This document shows positions 2,601 to 46,998 of a stretch of 48,336 bases of DNA, in pieces. The stretch's first letter is position 1, and each line of letters begins with the position of its first letter. The notes beneath the pieces were generated by a model. That model saw only the letters and a program-made list of their open reading frames with translations, searched no databases and was not told the DNA's origin. The translations under genes were made by a program, and so were the position numbers. Source of the DNA: a virus; the IMG/VR virus record IMGVR_UViG_3300031999_000040, positions 1 through 48,336 of that record. One strand, 5' to 3'.

Positions 2601-3131
2601 GTGGACCCCGATAAGTGCAAGAACGAGAGTTGCATCTGTAGAAGCTGTACTTCTATCACATACAGTGAACATCGCTGTAGAGAGTGGTGCCGTAAGTTTT
2701 GCTCAGCTATACACCCCGATCCCCGTCACCGTTGCCCTTACTGGCACGAGCAGAGTGCCGCGCGGCAAAATGTCATCAAAAATGTGTGCTTGGCGCCTAA
2801 CACTACGTCCCAGTCGGGAGGGGGTAAAGTAGCCGTGAAGCAGCAGCTGGCGAACATGCGGACGTGCTACGACTGCGCCTTGTGGAGTACCTGCCCAAAG
2901 CAGGACGCCGCGATGGGCACTTGGCAGGCCGCCTGGAGATTGCAGGAACGTTGCCCTAAAGGCGTGCAGCTGGTCGTCGCCGTAATCTGCAAAGACGCCG
3001 TACCCGCGCCGGGTTACAGGCGGCGAAGCCCCGAGTGGATTTGGGGCCATGACGAACGGGAGGTGCACAATGGCGATCAGAATAATGCGGACGACGGGAC
3101 GCATGGCGCAGGCGGCGGGGGAAGCGTGTGA
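2601..3131 (+). CDS. Cysteine-rich hypothetical protein
   Basis: 176 residues from GTG 2601, with many Cys in pairs (KNESCICRSCTS, CYDCALWSTC), suggesting zinc-binding knuckles. The last 62 nt overlap the start of the polymerase gene in another frame, giving a low-complexity Gly/Asp tail. An in-frame GTG at 2835, with a GGGAGGGGG-type site upstream, could start a shorter product that keeps the second Cys group. Not recognised. The N-terminal part could be a separate gene that has been joined. Confidence 0.5.
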   Translation: MDPDKCKNESCICRSCTSITYSEHRCREWCRKFCSAIHPDPRHRCPYWHEQSAARQNVIKNVCLAPNTTSQSGGGKVAVKQQLANMRTCYDCALWSTCPKQDAAMGTWQAAWRLQERCPKGVQLVVAVICKDAVPAPGYRRRSPEWIWGHDEREVHNGDQNNADDGTHGAGGGGSV

Positions 3132-5400
3132 AAGCTGCGGCCTGGCCGACTGCCTGTACGTACCCGGCTGCGGGCCGCCAGCCGCCCGCGTGGTCATCGT
3201 CGGGGAAGCGCCGGGCGATGTCGAGGCCGCACGTGGCGTACCGTTTGTCGGCCCGGCAGGCCGCCTGCTTGACCAGATACTGGCTGAGGTCGGCATCGAC
3301 CGCGAGGAGTGCTACGTCACGAATGCTTGCCTCTGCCGGCCGCGGACGCCCGAGGGAGTGCACCGCGCCCCCACAGACGACGAGATCGCGTGCTGCCGCG
3401 ACCGGCTCCTCGACGAAGTGGCCGGCAGGGCGCCGGACCTTGTTATCCTGTGCGGCGCAACGCCGCTAAAGGCAGTGCTGGGCAAGGGCAAAATCAGCGA
3501 CGAAAACGGGCTGGTCCAGTGGTGCGAGGACGTGAAGGCCCACGTCATGCCGGTCTTCCATCCCAGCGCGGCGCTGCACAAGCCGGGCTATTACATTGAC
3601 ATCGTTAAGGCTTTCCGCAAGGCGGCGCAGGTGTTGCATAACCCGTCGTCGGTACGCGTCGGCGCGCCTGGCGTCGAGCGGTACATCCTAGAGACGCGCG
3701 ACGACGTGGACGCGCTATGCGCCCGCCTGGCGGAGTTCACCCGCGTAACCATCGACGAGGAGCACGGTAGCCAAGGACAGCTGCTGTGCTTGGGCCTTTC
3801 CTACCACCCCGGCACCGCGGTCGTCCTGCCCCGGCACCTGTGCGAAGACCGCTACTGCTTGACGCGCCTTGATGAAGCCCTGGCCAGGATGCAGGTGGTC
3901 GGTCAGAACATCAAGTCCGACCTGAAGACGCTTTGGCGGCACGGTATGCCCCGCCTGACGACCGGCGGCGACCTCCTCCTGGCACATTACCTGTACTCCG
4001 GGATGCCAGGTGATCACGACCTGGAGAGCATCCTGGTCGAGCTTTTAAACGTGCCGCCGTACAAGCACATGGTGGCACGACATGTAAAGTGTATGGAGGA
4101 GTGTCCACCCGCCCTACTGCACGAGTATAACGGCTATGACGCCGCGTACACGCACCTGGCATTCCTCGACATCGAACAACGGCTGACGCCGGAGGAGCGC
4201 GCCTTCCTGGAAGGGATGCTGTACCCCGCCAGCGATGCGCTGGCGCGGATGGAGTATGTCGGTGTCCTCGTCGATGTTGCCCGGTGCGCTGAGGTTGAGG
4301 CGACGCTATCCACTCAAATTGCGGCGGCGAAGACGCAGATGTACGCCGCAGCGGGCGGCGAGTTCAACCCTAACTACTGGAAAGATGTCTGCAACGTGCT
4401 ATATGGGGTGCTCGGACTGCCCCTCGCACCGCGTGGGAAGATGTCGTCCGATGAGGAGAACCTGACCCGGCTGGCTGAAACCACCGATAGCCCGGTGCCC
4501 GGACTGGTCCTGGAGTACCGCAAGTTGAGCAAGCTCTACGGCACTTACGTGCAAAAGCTGCCGTCGCTCTTGGACAGCGCAAACCGGCTGCACACAACCT
4601 ATAACCTCAACACGACGCGAACGGGTCGCTTGTCTTCTAAAGAGCCTAACCTCCAGAACATCCCACATGGCAGCACCATCCATCAACTGTACGTGCCGTC
4701 GCCCGGCTACGTCATGGTTCAAGGCGACCTGTCCCAAGCTGAGGTGCGCGTCCTGGCACTTTTCAGCAAGGATAAGGTGCTGCTCGACGCGGTGGAAGGC
4801 GCCGACGTACATAGGAGTATGGCGGCCGCGGTTTTCAAGAAGCAACCGGAGGATGTCACAAGCGTTGAGCGCACGTCGGCGAAGCGTGCCACCTTCGGCA
4901 TCATGTACGGCATAACGGCGCGCGGCCTAGCGCGTAGCGTTGGATGCTCCGAGCCGGAGGCGCAGGAGATCATCAACAGGTTCTTCGCCGCGCTGCCGCA
5001 GGTGCGCGAGTGGATCGAATCCACGAAGCGTGAGGCAATGCGCACCGGCGTCGTGCGCACGCCGTTCGGGCGCCGGCGCGTGTTAAACTTCGGCGCTGAG
5101 AACACGGAGGTTATCCTGCGCCAGGCTGTGAACACGCCCATCCAGAGCACGGCCAGCGACATCTGCCTGGCCGGGTTGGTACGGCATGACCGGCGCCTGC
5201 TCGACGATCCCGGCCGGCGCCTGCTCCTGACGGTGCACGATTCGATCAGTGTCGAGGTGCTGGTAGACGCGCGTGACCAGGCGTGCGCTGAACTCAAGCA
5301 GGACATGGAGTTCATGTGGGACGGCGTGCACTTCCGCGCCGACGTCAGTTTCGGGCCGTCATGGGGCGCATTAGAAGACTGGGAGGTGACAGGATCATGA
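3070..5400 (+). CDS. Uracil-DNA glycosylase / 3'-5' exonuclease / DNA polymerase A fusion
   Basis: 776 residues from ATG 3070 (GGGAGG 7 nt upstream; an in-frame start at 3049 lacks such a site). Residues 18-200 match family 4/5-type uracil-DNA glycosylases: GEAPGDVE (45-52), PFVGPAGRLL, Cys pairs near 20-28 and 87 and a later CC fitting the 4Fe-4S cluster, and HPSAAL near 164. Next comes a DEDD exonuclease (DEE near 229, NIKSD, YNGYDAAY). The polymerase has motif A GDLSQAE (near 553), motif B RTSAKRATFGIMYG (near 601, Phe at the E. coli 762 position) and motif C VHDS (near 722). The usual motif C Glu is Ser. A glycosylase-like domain before a phage polymerase is known from SPO1-type phages. 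This is probably the replicative polymerase. Confidence 0.93.
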   Translation: MAIRIMRTTGRMAQAAGEACESCGLADCLYVPGCGPPAARVVIVGEAPGDVEAARGVPFVGPAGRLLDQILAEVGIDREECYVTNACLCRPRTPEGVHRAPTDDEIACCRDRLLDEVAGRAPDLVILCGATPLKAVLGKGKISDENGLVQWCEDVKAHVMPVFHPSAALHKPGYYIDIVKAFRKAAQVLHNPSSVRVGAPGVERYILETRDDVDALCARLAEFTRVTIDEEHGSQGQLLCLGLSYHPGTAVVLPRHLCEDRYCLTRLDEALARMQVVGQNIKSDLKTLWRHGMPRLTTGGDLLLAHYLYSGMPGDHDLESILVELLNVPPYKHMVARHVKCMEECPPALLHEYNGYDAAYTHLAFLDIEQRLTPEERAFLEGMLYPASDALARMEYVGVLVDVARCAEVEATLSTQIAAAKTQMYAAAGGEFNPNYWKDVCNVLYGVLGLPLAPRGKMSSDEENLTRLAETTDSPVPGLVLEYRKLSKLYGTYVQKLPSLLDSANRLHTTYNLNTTRTGRLSSKEPNLQNIPHGSTIHQLYVPSPGYVMVQGDLSQAEVRVLALFSKDKVLLDAVEGADVHRSMAAAVFKKQPEDVTSVERTSAKRATFGIMYGITARGLARSVGCSEPEAQEIINRFFAALPQVREWIESTKREAMRTGVVRTPFGRRRVLNFGAENTEVILRQAVNTPIQSTASDICLAGLVRHDRRLLDDPGRRLLLTVHDSISVEVLVDARDQACAELKQDMEFMWDGVHFRADVSFGPSWGALEDWEVTGS

Positions 5401-13312: not shown

Positions 13313-16222
13313 CTACTTCTTCAAGCGCACGTCGGGGTAGATGCCAATCACTTGCACCGGCCCCAACGTGCTGAACTTGATGCGAAACCACGGCGTGCGC
13401 GCGAGAGTGCCCGCGTCGATGGGCAACGGGATCTTGACGCGCTGTGGTGATGCTGTGCCTACGATGGTTGATGGGCTGGACCAGTCCGCGCCATCCCCAA
13501 GATCCCGCGCCCGCGTTGAGACACGCACTCCCAGCGTTGCGCCCGTCGGCACGTCAGCGACTACCCACAACCGCTTCAACTTCAGCTGGCGGGCCATGCT
13601 CTCCGCGACGAACTGACGCGCAGTTAGGGCGCCACTTATCCATTCGGCGGCGATAACCGCACCGTCGTCGGTGGTGCCTTCGTCAATCGTCCAGACCTTG
13701 CCATCATCGCCGACGACGAACAGGTGGTCGTCAGCGGCAAGGTCGGTAGGGCCTGCCGGCGTTGTGCGTATGCAGATGAAGTAGCCGCCAAGCGTGGATT
13801 CGACGAACGGCGTAGCGTTAGCATCCACGCCCGCGGCGGTGACTTTGTACACCTTACCGTATTGCAGATAGCCTGGCGGGACCACCGCAGTCACAGCGGC
13901 CAGCGCGCCCGCCTCAATCTGGTAGTCGCGGTCCTGGTATACGGTCCACGTTACACCGCCGTCAGTGGAGTAGACACCGCTGATGGGCATCTTCCACGTG
14001 GACGCGGCGACTGCAAGTTCGACCTGTAGGCCATCGATGTAAAACGTTATAGCCTGCGCCGTGCCGGACGTTACGGCGATAAGACGAATCCGCGTGGTCC
14101 CGACTGGTGTAAGGAAGTTCTCAGTCTTGGCGCGCGTCCATGTGATACTATTCAACACTATCACATGCGGCACACTCTCGCCAAGAAACGCTACGGCACT
14201 GTAGGCTTGCAACACGACCTTGATAGTACCCGCCCCAATGGCGTACAACGATCCACTGTGCACAACACCGGCGGGCGCAGAGACAAAGTTGGTCATAACT
14301 CCCTCAGTAACTACGTTGCCGGGAGTCACGACCTTAATTGAGTATATACCATGCCACGCTTTAGCAGTAGTCCACTCAAGCGTTTCAGTACCGGCCGACC
14401 ACACAAACCCGCCCAAACCCGCCTCTGCATCAGCTTGGTTATCCGAGAGGATATTATATGAATAACTATCAGCACCATAACCGTACTTGTAACGATTACC
14501 AATCAGCGCGGCCGGCGCCTTTATGATAATTACGTACTTGGCCCCGACCGTTAGCGCCGTCGGCAGGCAACCGGGGCACGGCCCCGCAGGCGTCAGCTGT
14601 ACGTACTTCCACACAAGCGCGCCGGCGGACGCAAAACGTATGATAACGCCTTGCGCCAGCACAGCGCCTACCGGCTTCCCGTCCCCGTCGGCCGCGTAAA
14701 GCTCGACGGTTATGTCGTCGGCTGGGACGCTGGCTAGCTCGGTAGCCAACGCGACGCGCGCGCCGTTGATGTGCGGTTGTATAGCTACGAAGTTCTGGCC
14801 CATGTACGACTGCCCGTAGAAGTAACCGCTAGCTTGGTAAGATACACCGTATAACGTGCCAAACGCTTGCACGTCTGCCACGACGCCTGCGTCCCATACC
14901 AACGCACCGCCGGCATCCCGAATGCGCAACTGCTTGCTAGCAATAGCGGGTACAGTGTCGCGCGTGATGTAATGTCGCAGCCCACCCGTCACGGTGAACC
15001 CTGAAACGGCGTTGTACACGGTGGGCGCTGTTACAGTACCTATAGGATATATAGGCGCGCCGGGGAAATACTCGAATACTACGGTGAACTTAGGCCGCAG
15101 CAACGGATCGGTCACGTAATCGCTGGAGTAAAGTTGTGCTTCTGTGTCGTCCCCCGACCCTGTGTACTTTATCGTCAAACCGTTGTTAGCGTATATGCCA
15201 TCAATCCACGAACCTATTATTGTTTTTATATCGTAGTTCTTCCAACCCGCTGGACTTAGACTAGGCCCCGCCACCGCAGTGCCCGTCACTCCCGGCTGGT
15301 TATTATACGTTACCGTCAACTCACCCCAAGAGGAACTTAGGGCATACACGTCAGGCGCAATGTTTTTTGGATCGTACACATAAAGTGACATGGTAGCACT
15401 AGTGTAGTTGTGCGACGTGACAAAAGCGACCAGCGCCGCAGGCAGCCCGAGTAGTATGTAATGCCTGAGACTTGTGGCGCTGCGTCCCACACGCAGCATT
15501 GTTGCAGTACCGTAGTTGCTGTCCGGTGATCCCTGGTCTGTATACGTGTCGATCCCCGTACCGTTAGGCTGCAACGTAATTGTAGGATCAATCATGACGG
15601 GCCACTGGCGGGCAGGATCAGCCAGCCAGACGGGATCGATAGTCATAGTGAGCGCGCCTTGCCCTATAGTTTGCGCTACGGATACCGTAGCGCCGGCGGC
15701 GTCTACAGCGGTTGCCGGCTGTATGATACCTATGGCCACACCGTCGCTGACGACGTTGAAGCCGCCATCCACGCGTGCCCTCAGTACAACATCGTTGCAG
15801 CATAGCCCGAACGCGAACTCGGTAGGAGCATCGGGCGCGTTGAGCTTGATCGTTTCCTTCACACCTTCGGGGAAAACGCAGTACGACAAGTCAGTGTTGG
15901 TCCACACACCGTTGTACGTGACGACCGGCCCGTCGGCAACAGGGGCGACCGCCACAGCGCCTTGCGGCGTGCAGGTAAGGAACTTCCCAGTCGCCAGGCC
16001 GAAGCGGAACTTACCGCCCGGCCCGAACCTGGACCAGTGCTCACACTTCATACGCAATGCGAAGCCGTTTACGGACGCGTCGCGGTTGACGCAGTGCACG
16101 TAATCTTCAAATTGGTTGGTATCACGGTCGAAGTAGTGCAGGCCCCGCTGTGCAATTAGCCGGCACCCACCGGAATCCTCGACCTCCATACGTGTCTGCC
16201 GGTCAAGCCGCAACACCCTCAC
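13313..16222 (-). CDS. Tail fibre / receptor-binding protein with DNRLRE domain
   Basis: 969 residues, beta-rich throughout. Residues about 220-380 have the DNRLRE-type carbohydrate-binding pattern: DTYTDQGSPDSNYG, then LRVGRS, a long beta-sandwich with SSSWGELTVTYNNQP, and DDTEAQLYSSDY before PKFTVVFE. Downstream are fibronectin-like or jelly-roll stretches and a C-terminal TFXFKxKF-like end. Such domains are found in surface proteins and phage fibres that bind host glycans. Codon use is less GC-rich in 14000-15500 than around it, as is common for fast-changing receptor genes. Confidence 0.75.
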   Translation of the reverse strand: MRVLRLDRQTRMEVEDSGGCRLIAQRGLHYFDRDTNQFEDYVHCVNRDASVNGFALRMKCEHWSRFGPGGKFRFGLATGKFLTCTPQGAVAVAPVADGPVVTYNGVWTNTDLSYCVFPEGVKETIKLNAPDAPTEFAFGLCCNDVVLRARVDGGFNVVSDGVAIGIIQPATAVDAAGATVSVAQTIGQGALTMTIDPVWLADPARQWPVMIDPTITLQPNGTGIDTYTDQGSPDSNYGTATMLRVGRSATSLRHYILLGLPAALVAFVTSHNYTSATMSLYVYDPKNIAPDVYALSSSWGELTVTYNNQPGVTGTAVAGPSLSPAGWKNYDIKTIIGSWIDGIYANNGLTIKYTGSGDDTEAQLYSSDYVTDPLLRPKFTVVFEYFPGAPIYPIGTVTAPTVYNAVSGFTVTGGLRHYITRDTVPAIASKQLRIRDAGGALVWDAGVVADVQAFGTLYGVSYQASGYFYGQSYMGQNFVAIQPHINGARVALATELASVPADDITVELYAADGDGKPVGAVLAQGVIIRFASAGALVWKYVQLTPAGPCPGCLPTALTVGAKYVIIIKAPAALIGNRYKYGYGADSYSYNILSDNQADAEAGLGGFVWSAGTETLEWTTAKAWHGIYSIKVVTPGNVVTEGVMTNFVSAPAGVVHSGSLYAIGAGTIKVVLQAYSAVAFLGESVPHVIVLNSITWTRAKTENFLTPVGTTRIRLIAVTSGTAQAITFYIDGLQVELAVAASTWKMPISGVYSTDGGVTWTVYQDRDYQIEAGALAAVTAVVPPGYLQYGKVYKVTAAGVDANATPFVESTLGGYFICIRTTPAGPTDLAADDHLFVVGDDGKVWTIDEGTTDDGAVIAAEWISGALTARQFVAESMARQLKLKRLWVVADVPTGATLGVRVSTRARDLGDGADWSSPSTIVGTASPQRVKIPLPIDAGTLARTPWFRIKFSTLGPVQVIGIYPDVRLKK

Positions 16223-44883: not shown

Positions 44884-44920
44884 ATCGGAGAGCCGACCAC
44901 GTTCCGAGGGAGGTGAATGT

Positions 44921-45163
44921 ATGGACGCACAAAACGTGATCCTGGGGCAAATCGTCATCGCGCGGATCGAGAACGGCTTTTTGGTAACGTGTGACCCTTC
45001 CAACTCCCGTCCGGCGCGGCACTACTCATGTGCCTACCCGTCTGACGTGCACGCAGCTGTTGACGCGCATCTGAGCAGGTTGGTGTCAACCGCCGACTCG
45101 GTTGCGATGCAGAGCACAGCTACCAGCAGCCGCGACACCTGTGAGCCGCCTCAAGAGGCGTAG
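44921..45163 (+). CDS. Small protein of the IENG-type family, copy 2
   Basis: 80 residues from ATG 44921 with GGGAGGTGAA upstream. IVIARIENGFLVTCD, a variable middle with YSCAYPSDVHAAVDAHLSRL, then a Ser/Thr-rich tail. Related in pattern to the products at 8243 and 45250. Function unknown. Confidence 0.65.
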   Translation: MDAQNVILGQIVIARIENGFLVTCDPSNSRPARHYSCAYPSDVHAAVDAHLSRLVSTADSVAMQSTATSSRDTCEPPQEA

Positions 45164-45197
45164 ACCACAGACACAGCAGCGCAGGTCGAGGCAGTAC

Positions 45198-45226
45198 GGG
45201 CACGCGGCGGCGCGGGCCGCGTGCCC
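45198..45226 (+). promoter_or_regulatory. 11-bp perfect hairpin
   Basis: GGGCACGCGGC and GCCGCGTGCCC pair with a 7-nt loop. No T tract follows, so it is more likely an mRNA processing or stability element than a terminator. Confidence 0.55.
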
Positions 45227-45249
45227 TGGACGAAAAGGGGGACAAGCAT

Positions 45250-45462
45250 ATGAGTGGCTACAAGGCTTACCGTCTCAGTTCTGCGGAGAACGGGTTTATC
45301 ATCGACGCCTGCGACGACGCCATCCAGTGGGTGTTCACGTCCCGCTATGACACCCTCGTGTTCCTGGCTGAGTGCATGTTGAAAATGCAGCCCGAGGGCC
45401 AGTCTGTTGCAGTCGAGATACGCAAAATCGCCTACGACGGGGACGCTCCGGCAGCGAAGTAG
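45250..45462 (+). CDS. Small protein of the IENG-type family, copy 3
   Basis: 70 residues from ATG 45250. YRLSSAENGFIIDACDD, then TSRYDTLVFLAECMLKM, follows the same strand-ENG-helix order as copies 1 and 2. It ends 7 nt before the tRNA gene. Confidence 0.65.
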   Translation: MSGYKAYRLSSAENGFIIDACDDAIQWVFTSRYDTLVFLAECMLKMQPEGQSVAVEIRKIAYDGDAPAAK

Positions 45463-45469
45463 CGAGAAC

Positions 45470-45564
45470 GCCGGCGTGGCGGAACGGTAGACGCGGCGCT
45501 CTTCTAAAGCAATGCCGCTGCTTTCCACAGCAGCATCCGGGTTCAACTCCCGGCGCCGGCACCA
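45470..45564 (+). tRNA. tRNA with long variable arm, probable anticodon TCT
   Basis: 95 nt including encoded CCA (45562-45564). The acceptor GCCGGCG/CGCCGGC is perfect. The D-arm has GCGGAACGGTAGACGC as in tRNA-Leu. The T-arm is CCGGG-TTCAACT-CCCGG. A 6-bp variable arm (GCTGCT/AGCAGC) makes it class II. The loop CTTCTAA (45501-45507) reads TCT (Arg), but only three anticodon-stem pairs form (GCT/AGC); pairing resumes as GGC/GCC only after an AAT bulge. The identity is therefore uncertain, and the tRNA may be degenerate or unusual. Confidence 0.8.
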
Positions 45565-45570
45565 GTTTGG

Positions 45571-45720
45571 CAGGCGGAGCACGCGCGGCAGCGCGGGTGG
45601 GGTAGGTACGGGGCGTCACTTGCGGGGCGGTGCTTTAGGCCGCTGGGGCCTGTCGGCCCACTAAGCGGGGCGCCACGTGGAGCAACAAGGGGTGCTGGGT
45701 TGGAATCCGGCCTCCGCCTG
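45571..45720 (+). ncRNA. Structured RNA A, tRNA-like ends
   Basis: A perfect 9-bp helix joins CAGGCGGAG (45571-45579) and CTCCGCCTG (45712-45720). Directly before the 3' strand is a T-arm-like hairpin, GCTGG/CCGGC (45694-45711), with loop GTTGGAAT. Inside are CGCG-CGGCAG-CGCG (45582-45595) and a GGGCC/GGCCC-type hairpin (45644-45660). At 150 nt it is too long for a tRNA and has no clear anticodon arm. It contains GTGGGGTAGG, shared with RNA B. Confidence 0.55.
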
Positions 45721-45740
45721 TTACAGTTGGAGGTGAGAAA

Positions 45741-45905
45741 ATGGGGGACATCGTAGAAGCCAGTGAGGTTGAAGACGTGGCGGAAGGAGACGGGATCGAG
45801 CTAAAGCCAGGCGAGGCGGAAGAAGTAGCGCGGGCAGTTGAGAATAAGCTGGAAGACACAATCCGCCGTGAGATCCGCAAGCACCTCGAAGATCGTCACG
45901 GTTAA
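45741..45905 (+). CDS. 54-residue acidic coiled-coil protein
   Basis: ATG 45741 has TTGGAGGTGA upstream. The product is a charged helix: acidic first half (VEDVAEGDGIELKPGEAEEVA) and a C-terminal helix rich in Arg/Glu (NKLEDTIRREIRKHLEDRHG). It lies between two structured RNAs and might act on one of them. That link is inference. Confidence 0.7.
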   Translation: MGDIVEASEVEDVAEGDGIELKPGEAEEVARAVENKLEDTIRREIRKHLEDRHG

Positions 45906-46198
45906 CTAGGTTTTAGTGGGTGAGGCAGCGCGGTACACGACGTGCCTGAAGACTGCTAGGTCGAGGGGTAAGGCGCAGGATGTTCTTTGTCCGAGTGCGG
46001 GCCGTGGGTCTATAGCCCTAGCCCGCCGCGACCTCGAAGCCGGGCGCGACCCGGCCCTCGCCCGCTGGTTGATGCGCTGTGGTCCGCCCCGAGGGGGCGG
46101 CGGGGCGGGCCTCCGTTCGTACCGCTCGTCGCCAGCTTGTCCTGGCCGGGCGCACTGCACCCCGCGAGGAGAGGTTAGCACAGAGCACTGAGATTTAC
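45906..46198 (+). ncRNA. GC-rich hairpin stretch without a gene
   Basis: No credible coding frame. Hairpins visible: AGGTCG/CGACCT (45958-45963 with 46029-46034) enclosing GCGGGC/GCCCGC (45997-46002 with 46021-46026) with an inner GGG/CCC, GCCGGG-x-CCCGGC at about 46039-46055, and CCGCCCC/GGGGCGG (46084-46090 with 46094-46100). It may be a third structured RNA in the cluster. The strand is assumed from neighbours. Confidence 0.4.
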
Positions 46199-46349
46199 GG
46201 CGACGTAGCGTGGCGGTTTTCCACGCCAGGAGAGCGTAGTGGGGTAGGCCACCCGTAAACGGCTCTTCTGTTCGCTTCTTCCGAGAGGAAGGGCGCGCGC
46301 ATCCTGTAGCTACAGAGATGCGCGGTCGGTTCAACTCCGGCCGTCGCCC
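46199..46349 (+). ncRNA. Structured RNA B, tRNA-like acceptor and T-arm
   Basis: GGCGACG (46199-46205) pairs perfectly with CGTCGCC (46342-46348). The 3' strand is preceded by a T-arm, GTCGG-TTCAACT-CCGGC (46325-46341), with the same T-loop as the tRNA at 45470. The 119 nt between hold GCGTGG/CCACGC (46208-46226), an 8-bp AGGAGAGC/GCTCTTCT helix (46228-46269), CTTCC-GAGA-GGAAG (46278-46291) and CGCGCATC/GATGCGCG (46296-46324). No anticodon arm or CCA is seen. Not a normal tRNA, and too short for a known tRNA group I intron. Confidence 0.6.
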
Positions 46350-46387
46350 TCAACTTGTTTGCACGATCACAGGAGGAGGTGAAGAAT

Positions 46388-46684
46388 GTGAAACCCAGTG
46401 AAACTATCTTCGACGGCGCGCGGCATCTAATCCCGATGGCGCGAGTGATGTTCGTCGAGAAGAACGGCCCTGAGATTTGCGTCGTGCTCCAGGGCGCCCA
46501 GCACCCAACGGACGCCCAGGGCCAGATCATCAACGGCATGGGCCGGGCTGACTGTCCGTACCTCTCAGGCGAAGAGGCGAAGTCCTTTCTGTCTGCGTGG
46601 TGCTACTACAGGGCCGAAGTTGATGGGATGCTTCAGGGCGCGGAGTTGGATCAGGAGTTGGAACAGGAGGTAAGCAAGGCGTGA
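46388..46684 (+). CDS. Hypothetical protein
   Basis: 98 residues from GTG 46388 with AGGAGGAGGTG upstream. Beta-rich first half (ARVMFVEKNGPEICVVLQG) then helices ending ELDQELEQEVSKA. Coupled to the next gene (stop/GTG overlap). Not recognised. Confidence 0.65.
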   Translation: MKPSETIFDGARHLIPMARVMFVEKNGPEICVVLQGAQHPTDAQGQIINGMGRADCPYLSGEEAKSFLSAWCYYRAEVDGMLQGAELDQELEQEVSKA

Positions 46685-46998
46685 AACCTAGTTCATGCAC
46701 GTACCCGTCCGAGTGCTGCGCACTAAAAGCGCGGGACCGGCAACTGCACTGGCAGCGCATGATGCTGTTAGTTGCGGTCAAACAACTGGGCGGGAAGTTC
46801 GAGGCGACAACGGAGGACATGGTGACAGCACAGGACTTCCTGATCACTCGAACGACGCGGCAAACGCTGGATACCACCGTTTACGGGCTTGAGATCGAGG
46901 GAACCCGGCGCGACCAGGAAGGGCCGGCGCCTAAGTCGGGGCAGCAGGCCGTGATCACGCCGGCCATGCGGTTCGCCTCGGAATGTGATTCCGACTAA
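46681..46998 (+). CDS. Hypothetical protein
   Basis: 105 residues from GTG 46681, overlapping the preceding stop. CTYPSECCALKARDRQLHWQRMMLLVAVKQLGGKF and DMVTAQDFLITRTTRQTLDTTVYGLEI suggest a helical start and a small alpha/beta domain. It lies directly before the primase. Not recognised. Confidence 0.65.
   Translation: MKPSSCTYPSECCALKARDRQLHWQRMMLLVAVKQLGGKFEATTEDMVTAQDFLITRTTRQTLDTTVYGLEIEGTRRDQEGPAPKSGQQAVITPAMRFASECDSD

Follow-up and report, generated by a model that had tools for sequence, protein, structure and literature searches.

What does a virus encode where the acceptor helix and T-arm of a tRNA enclose a body far too large for one? This question is raised by positions 46199–46349 of a 48,336-base virus record with a GC content of 62% (IMGVR_UViG_3300031999_000040), which we analysed over its full length and refer to as the window. 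A preliminary description had reported a perfect acceptor and a canonical T-arm at this place, separated by 119 nt, and had considered a tRNA mimic, a decoy or a strongly expanded tRNA. The record carries genes for an SU10-type portal, a terminase and a major head protein. It opens (positions 1–40) with a perfect 16-base inverted repeat, GACGCCACGTTGCGTC ... GACGCAACGTGGCGTC, and a 783-aa protein encoded at 3049–5400 combines uracil-DNA-glycosylase, 3'-5' exonuclease (just under the Pfam cut-off) and DNA polymerase A domains.

Results

Fold and stability of the RNA

A helix check and structure prediction confirmed the perfect acceptor, the canonical T-arm and the 119 nt between them, and delimited the RNA to 46199–46348 on the + strand, where all parts named below also lie. 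The seven acceptor pairs are all Watson-Crick (GGCGACG, 46199–46205, with CGTCGCC, 46342–46348), and the T-arm (46325–46341, GTCGG-TTCAACT-CCGGC) has 5 bp, one of them U-G. The sequence between acceptor and T-arm folds into four helices in the minimum free energy (MFE) and centroid structures alike. It begins with TA (46206–46207), which has the letters and place of U8 and A9 in a canonical tRNA. Helix 1 (46208–46226), supported by MFE and alignment, has 6 bp and the loop CGGTTTT, with a GG as in a D-loop. Helix 2 (46227–46270; 9 bp with an apical hairpin) stands at the place of the anticodon arm, helix 3 (46273–46295; 9 bp) ends in a GAGA tetraloop, and helix 4 (46296–46324), seen in the fold and in the consensus with a related virus, has 11 bp (12 in the MFE structure) and abuts the T-arm like a long variable arm.

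The four helices had been described as replacing both the D and the anticodon arms. The anticodon arm is indeed absent, but helix 1 begins where a D-arm begins and carries a GG loop, so that "in place of the D arm" overstates the difference; the missing element is the anticodon arm. The GG of this loop may contact the T-loop, as GG does in tRNA. At the 3' end, the discriminator place (46349) is a C, which is unusual, and is followed by TCA; the acceptor thus runs into CTCA rather than NCCA, and no CCA tail is encoded.

The predicted energy of −80.1 kcal/mol compares with −59.2 kcal/mol (sd 4.28) for shuffled sequences (z −4.88), and none of 200 shuffles folded as well. Set against 482 + strand windows spaced 100 nt apart across the record, the RNA has the highest GC-corrected stability. 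We also scanned both strands for a perfect acceptor and a T-stem with a TTCRANY loop at a gap of 30–199; this strict rule found two places in the window, a tRNA-Arg and this RNA, against 0.005 expected per shuffled window. Pair probabilities in the isolated RNA are 0.99–1.00 for acceptor pairs 1–6, 0.62 for pair 7 and 0.99–1.00 for the T-stem; those of the acceptor fall to 0.52–0.85 when 150 nt of flank are included on each side.

Comparison with a related virus

Relatives were sought in viral contigs with two protein queries and four DNA patterns, and among the matches listed one virus carries the RNA: IMGVR_UViG_3300031746_000042, at 2826–2974 of locus L004, which belongs to the same contig as L003 and L006. 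For another fragment (L005), the 12,578 of 18,752 bases compared gave no match to the region; genome contigs gave 0 matches for GGTAGGCCACCCGTAAAC, and phage records gave short, weak matches only. Among the matches listed in viral contigs that have the same acceptor at a like spacing, 13 of the 120 examined can form 4 or 5 pairs where the T-stem would be; of these, L004 alone has a TTC loop there.

The two RNAs differ by seven substitutions and one 2-nt loop deletion (95% identical without gaps). The deletion, which shortens the helix 1 loop to CGGTT in L004, breaks any reading frame through the RNA. The 5' acceptor strand, the TA linker and the T-arm are invariant. In a consensus fold derived from the same two sequences, which drops pairs 39–61 and 109–114 (RNA numbering) of the window's MFE structure, five of the seven substitutions fall in helices, four in helix 2 and one in helix 3 (U-G to C-G), and all five keep a standard pair; every one is one-sided, with 0 two-sided changes. 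Judged by the window's own MFE structure, four substitutions keep a pair and two break one, namely the end pairs 39–61, which belongs to helix 2, and 109–114, the last MFE pair of helix 4, whose single substitution lies in the loop of the consensus. All of 104 cells (100%) pair in the consensus fold versus 40–55% with slid partners, a control that favours a structure derived from the sequences tested. The L004 RNA has a predicted fold energy of −86.6 kcal/mol. Because none of the L004 changes is two-sided, the comparison of these two sequences indicates constraint, not covariation. The label "tRNA-like" is borne out by the fold, by the chance test on acceptor and T-arm and by the L004 comparison: the RNA at 46199–46348 is real, conserved, tRNA-like and without an anticodon arm.

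Comparison with tRNA, tmRNA and other tRNA-like RNAs

The preliminary description had named an ordinary tRNA on either strand as a competing model. At 46199–46348, neither ARAGORN nor Rfam found a tRNA or tmRNA above threshold on either strand. In Rfam scans at gathering and permissive thresholds, the sole hit at the site was to P13, at chance level (18.7 bits; cut-off 70). The 6-bp stem at the D position and the long arm before the T-arm resemble tRNA-Sec, but the tRNA-Sec model (RF01852) had no match in 45300–46600 up to E 10. Bacterial Y RNA (YrlA) likewise holds a tRNA-like module within a larger RNA, but no Y RNA family was among the permissive Rfam matches. A search of all 48,336 bases for a Ro60/TROVE protein (PF05731) gave no hit; the record may be incomplete, and such a protein could come from a host.

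The RNA shares with canonical tRNA (RF00005) the acceptor, U8-A9, a D-position hairpin with GG and the T-arm, but it differs in having no anticodon arm and no encoded CCA and in being about 150 nt long. CCA may be added after transcription. The idea of a strongly expanded tRNA, that is, a decoding tRNA with one insertion, fared poorly. Under a strict rule (5 pairs, U33, a purine at 37 and one excision, with variable regions of 3–40 nt allowed), the excision test gave 0 solutions with a canonical anticodon arm; shuffled cores yield one in 1.3% of cases (class I) or 11.6% (any). The predicted fold likewise holds no anticodon arm of 5 bp and 7 nt. The RNA probably does not decode.

Genomic neighbourhood

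Upstream on the same strand, a tRNA-Arg with anticodon UCU and an encoded CCA lies at 45470–45564 (ARAGORN; Rfam tRNA, 44.8 bits). Its variable arm is long and its anticodon stem contains two mismatches; GCGGC and GCCGC, which flank this stem, could pair instead. A second oversized tRNA-like RNA is a weak candidate at 45573–45718 (+ strand): its acceptor, GGCGGAG/CTCCGCC, is invariant in L004, and its T-arm is imperfect, with an 8-nt loop, and absent from the predicted fold. We dropped this candidate as an equal of the main RNA for its ordinary stability (z 0.19 against shuffles, in a frame one base off; rank 142 of 482 windows, in the frame 45568–45718). A small + strand ORF of 54 aa (45741–45905), with no Pfam match, separates this candidate from the main RNA and its upstream domain.

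Directly 5' of the tRNA-like RNA, and on the same strand, a consensus fold with L004 outlines a structured, apparently non-coding domain of 293 nt (45906–46198). It is less alike between the two viruses than the tRNA-like RNA, with one 2-nt indel, and four of its pairs (columns 26–37, 59–129, 93–120 and 98–116) are changed on both sides; the consensus has 161 pairs over 484 joint columns that include the tRNA-like RNA. Directly 3' of the RNA, 46399–46665 is absent in the related virus, whose alignment jumps from 46399 to 46665; this segment holds most of a 98-codon ORF (46388–46684). No sigma-70-like promoter or terminator was found on the + strand of 44900–46900, and Pfam gave no match above its cut-off for ten more ORFs, of which seven lie close to the RNA.

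Comparison with T4 RNA C

RNA C and RNA D of phage T4 have been known for a long time without a function. Genes in NC_000866 are ordered tRNA-Arg, rnaD, rnaC; the tRNA-Arg has the anticodon loop CUUCUAA, which gives the anticodon UCU, and RNA C (rnaC, 'species 1 RNA') occupies 70908–71046. PMC9697503 describes both RNAs as of unknown function, late in class and detected on a Northern blot, and PMC3014915 also states that their function is unknown. The T-arm of T4 rnaC, CCGGG-TTCGAAT-CCCGG, is followed by CGTTTCG, which forms 5 of 7 possible pairs with the CGATTCG at the 5' end. Rfam returned nothing near a cut-off for rnaC (best tRNA-Sec, 17.5 bits against 47). In our reading, RNA C is an oversized tRNA-like RNA in which acceptor and T-arm close an oversized body.

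Blastn relatives of rnaC occur in 718 phage records. We aligned T4 with five phages picked for divergence from the best 40 of the 718; for VPA32 and NM4.3, blastn covers 47% and 33% of the rnaC query, and the 5' part was placed by position. At the third acceptor pair, two of the six have A-U and four have G-C. At the middle T-stem pair, G-C and U-A each occur in two phages and A-U in one, while the bases of the remaining phage do not pair. The T-loop letters of ZX14 are no longer canonical. We named 16 pairs by hand, omitting two U-U mismatches and including six invariant TTGACG/CGTCAA pairs; 99% of their 96 cells pair, against 29–46% with slid partners. The covariation score was reached by 2 of 500 shuffles, but 192 reached the observed count of two pairs changed on both sides, and 283 the number of pair types. 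TTGACG and CGTCAA are invariant in all six phages and could pair with each other; both motifs are absent from 46199–46349.

Both RNAs measure about 140–150 nt, have an acceptor and T-arm that close an oversized body, carry a hairpin just 5' of the T-arm, come last in a run of tRNA genes, downstream of tRNA-Arg(UCU) (for RNA C, in T4), and have no Rfam match above chance. This place is not universal for RNA C, as the copies of Moon and VPA32 sit between other tRNA genes. There are also clear differences. Two U-U mismatches interrupt the RNA C acceptor (5/7 pairs), whereas that of the RNA described here pairs 7/7; the first hairpin of RNA C lies elsewhere than at the D-arm position; RNA D stands between tRNA-Arg and RNA C in T4; and RNA C is known to be made, whereas our RNA is predicted from its sequence. 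The two have no detectable sequence similarity: blastn of 46199–46349 against 50,697 phage records (E ≤10) returned six records, none of the T4 kind, from Streptomyces and Klebsiella phages and covering 17% of the query. The RNA is closest to T4 RNA C in build and place; given these common traits and the lack of detectable shared sequence, it is an analogue of RNA C, not a shown member of its kind.

Oversized tRNA genes in other genomes

We searched viral contigs with the pattern TAGCTCAG-N(4-8)-AGAGC-N(60-121)-GGTTCRANTCC, using spacers of 60–90 and 91–121. In 352 viral loci from these two runs and from one of the DNA-pattern searches for relatives, there were at least 308 distinct matches. 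We excluded 213 that overlap an ARAGORN tRNA; of the rest, 59 in 56 loci combine a 7-bp acceptor with a full T-stem and no ARAGORN tRNA, and 36 fail on acceptor or T-stem. The 59 oversized genes among the matches listed are 107–157 nt long. One excision restores a canonical anticodon arm in 27 of the 59 listed, against 0.9 expected, and in 32 it does not under this strict rule. Among the same listed matches, a split after position 28 is possible in 12 (0.14 expected) and after position 29 in eight (0.08 expected), together 17 genes.

Insertions of 39–57 nt split the anticodon stem (28|29 or 29|30) in the viral loci L211, L216, L220, L146, L160, L158, L203, L204 and L196; viral inserts often have a hairpin and then CAGCAA, or end in GGGTTACTT. 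When prokaryote genomes were searched with the same pattern (spacer 60–90), archaea were the most frequent group by title, with 46 of the 80 loci among the matches listed, in keeping with the introns of archaeal tRNA genes. Cyanobacteria (L262, L266, L271 and L323, by title) have insertions of 41–52 nt at the same place in tRNA genes, as do L343 and L360, and like insertions occur in a Flavobacterium (L269, by title) and in L333, L346 and L354; the 28|29 split is also found in some cyanobacteria and a Flavobacterium. The cyanobacterial inserts have a common motif like aacatccttgttc...cttgcctg.aaagg.cga.gaat...agggttat. Short 'group I introns' of tRNA anticodon loops in cyanobacteria are described in PMC5733544; the cyanobacterial inserts agree with them in motif, but the split lies in the loop there and in the stem here. 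The text of a tRNA survey of virus genomes does not contain the word 'intron' (PMC6409571). Insertion-bearing viral and cyanobacterial genes resemble the RNA at 46199–46348 in being oversized with an acceptor, D-arm and T-arm, but in the viral ones an anticodon arm appears once 39–57 nt are removed.

No excision restores an anticodon arm in the viral genes of L014, L021, L076 and L113; L109 has no clear D-arm and was grouped with them by look only. The Rfam tRNA model matches the insertion-bearing genes of L160, L204 and L142 and one of three in L158, and has no match for L014, L021, L076, L109, L113, L266, L323 or L343. Its score does not divide insertion-bearing from anticodon-less genes cleanly. 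The viral contig L160, which carries oversized tRNA genes, also holds a HEARO RNA (RF02033, 139.4 bits) at 14095–14337.

A further survey started from the T-arm. The 118 loci covered, a set that left out L004, gave 111 distinct GGTTCAACTCCGGCC matches, 33 in ARAGORN tRNAs and 78 outside, 52 of the latter with a full T-stem. A perfect acceptor occurs at a gap of 67–130 in four of these 52 (0.62 expected) and at 131–200 in one (0.81 expected), counts that indicate an excess of moderately oversized forms only. A looser scan of 121 loci (126 sequences less the window and four overlapping loci) returned 21 rows, including two for L004 and three copies of one sequence; several of these are likely to be chance. 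In the Streptomyces phages Quantum, Kradal, EhyElimayoE and Satis, a 6-bp acceptor and a T-arm lie about 110 nt apart beside tRNA genes (PQ412544.1, about 126703–126853; L007, about 1482–1632), at a place that is intergenic and unannotated in Quantum. With a z of only −1.99 and four near-identical copies (98.8–100%), this place stays a lead.

Discussion

We consider it somewhat probable that 46199–46348 encodes a small, stable, processed and non-decoding phage RNA that uses the upper half of a tRNA as its frame, with three helices replacing the anticodon arm in the predicted fold. It would be transcribed together with tRNA-Arg, and the acceptor/T-arm stack and elbow would be recognised by host tRNA-maturation enzymes. 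This part of the proposal draws on the fact that RNase P recognises the acceptor/T-arm stack. RNase P would cut at 46199, and 3' trimming or RNase Z would act near 46349, so that host enzymes would free the RNA and protect it as they do a tRNA. The multi-helix body could then do the work of the RNA by binding some partner from host or phage in the course of infection, as we presume for T4 RNA C.

Several results favour this processed tRNA-like RNA: the fold and chance tests, the pairing kept in L004 with its 2-nt indel in a loop, the lack of a tRNA, tmRNA or Rfam match and of any anticodon arm by excision, and the place after tRNA-Arg(UCU). T4 RNA C provides a precedent, with a compensatory A-U/G-C change in its acceptor and a variable T-stem pair that is paired in 5/6. 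Other results weaken it. A single relative was found, with no two-sided change inside the RNA and two MFE pairs broken; no CCA is encoded, the discriminator is C, the flanks weaken the acceptor, and no sigma-70-like promoter or + strand terminator was found in 44900–46900; and RNA C has no detectable sequence in common with it.

The main rival, which we regard as unlikely, is that the tRNA-like RNA is chiefly a cutting mark, at which RNase P would cleave (46199) and so create the 3' terminus of a functional structured RNA at 45906–46198. The tRNA-like mascRNA element acts as such a processing mark for MALAT1. The upstream domain abuts the tRNA-like RNA, and all pairs with compensating changes on both sides in the joint consensus fold (4/161) fall within it, but a cutting mark would not need a 119-nt body, and yet this body is conserved and unusually stable.

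An improbable alternative is a decoy whose acceptor/T-arm half would bind and tie up host factors directed at tRNA, for example defence nucleases acting on the acceptor end or the elbow; lacking an anticodon, it would escape anticodon nucleases. Only the half read by such factors is kept, and tail-cutting defence nucleases exist, such as Cas12a3 (PMC12851939). A factor that reads the tail, however, would need CCA to be added, since none is encoded. We give equally low credence to a decayed tRNA or a fold without function. The RNA is known in two viruses only, it lies in a GC-rich region, and two substitutions break MFE end pairs, but decay is at odds with the perfect acceptor, the full T-stem, substitutions that keep pairs in the consensus fold and a stability that ranks first against 482 windows. 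Already disfavoured above, and very improbable, is a tRNA that decodes despite an intron or insertion, whether by removing or by tolerating it: such genes exist in other viral contigs (27 of 59 listed restored against 0.9 expected), but here the core yields a canonical arm by 0 excisions under the strict rule, and no CCA is encoded.

More tentatively, and with considerable doubt, we propose that this RNA, T4 RNA C and the genes of L014, L021, L076 and L113, perhaps with L109, represent one overlooked kind of phage gene, in which the tRNA chassis is kept and the anticodon domain exchanged for a different RNA domain. Searches of the open-access literature brought up nothing on oversized anticodon-less phage tRNA-like RNAs, which is weak evidence of absence, as subscription papers and the T4 papers of the 1970s lie mostly outside it. 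Such genes may be commoner than listed because ARAGORN skips them, and oversized tRNA genes of viruses as a whole may merit a separate study. A structural analogue at a like place in an unrelated phage offers a second case to compare with T4 RNA C, and suggests looking for a maturation handle in the acceptor and T-arm and for cargo in the body. If these genes are indeed one kind, host tRNA enzymes would mature and guard a regulatory or anti-defence RNA of the phage.
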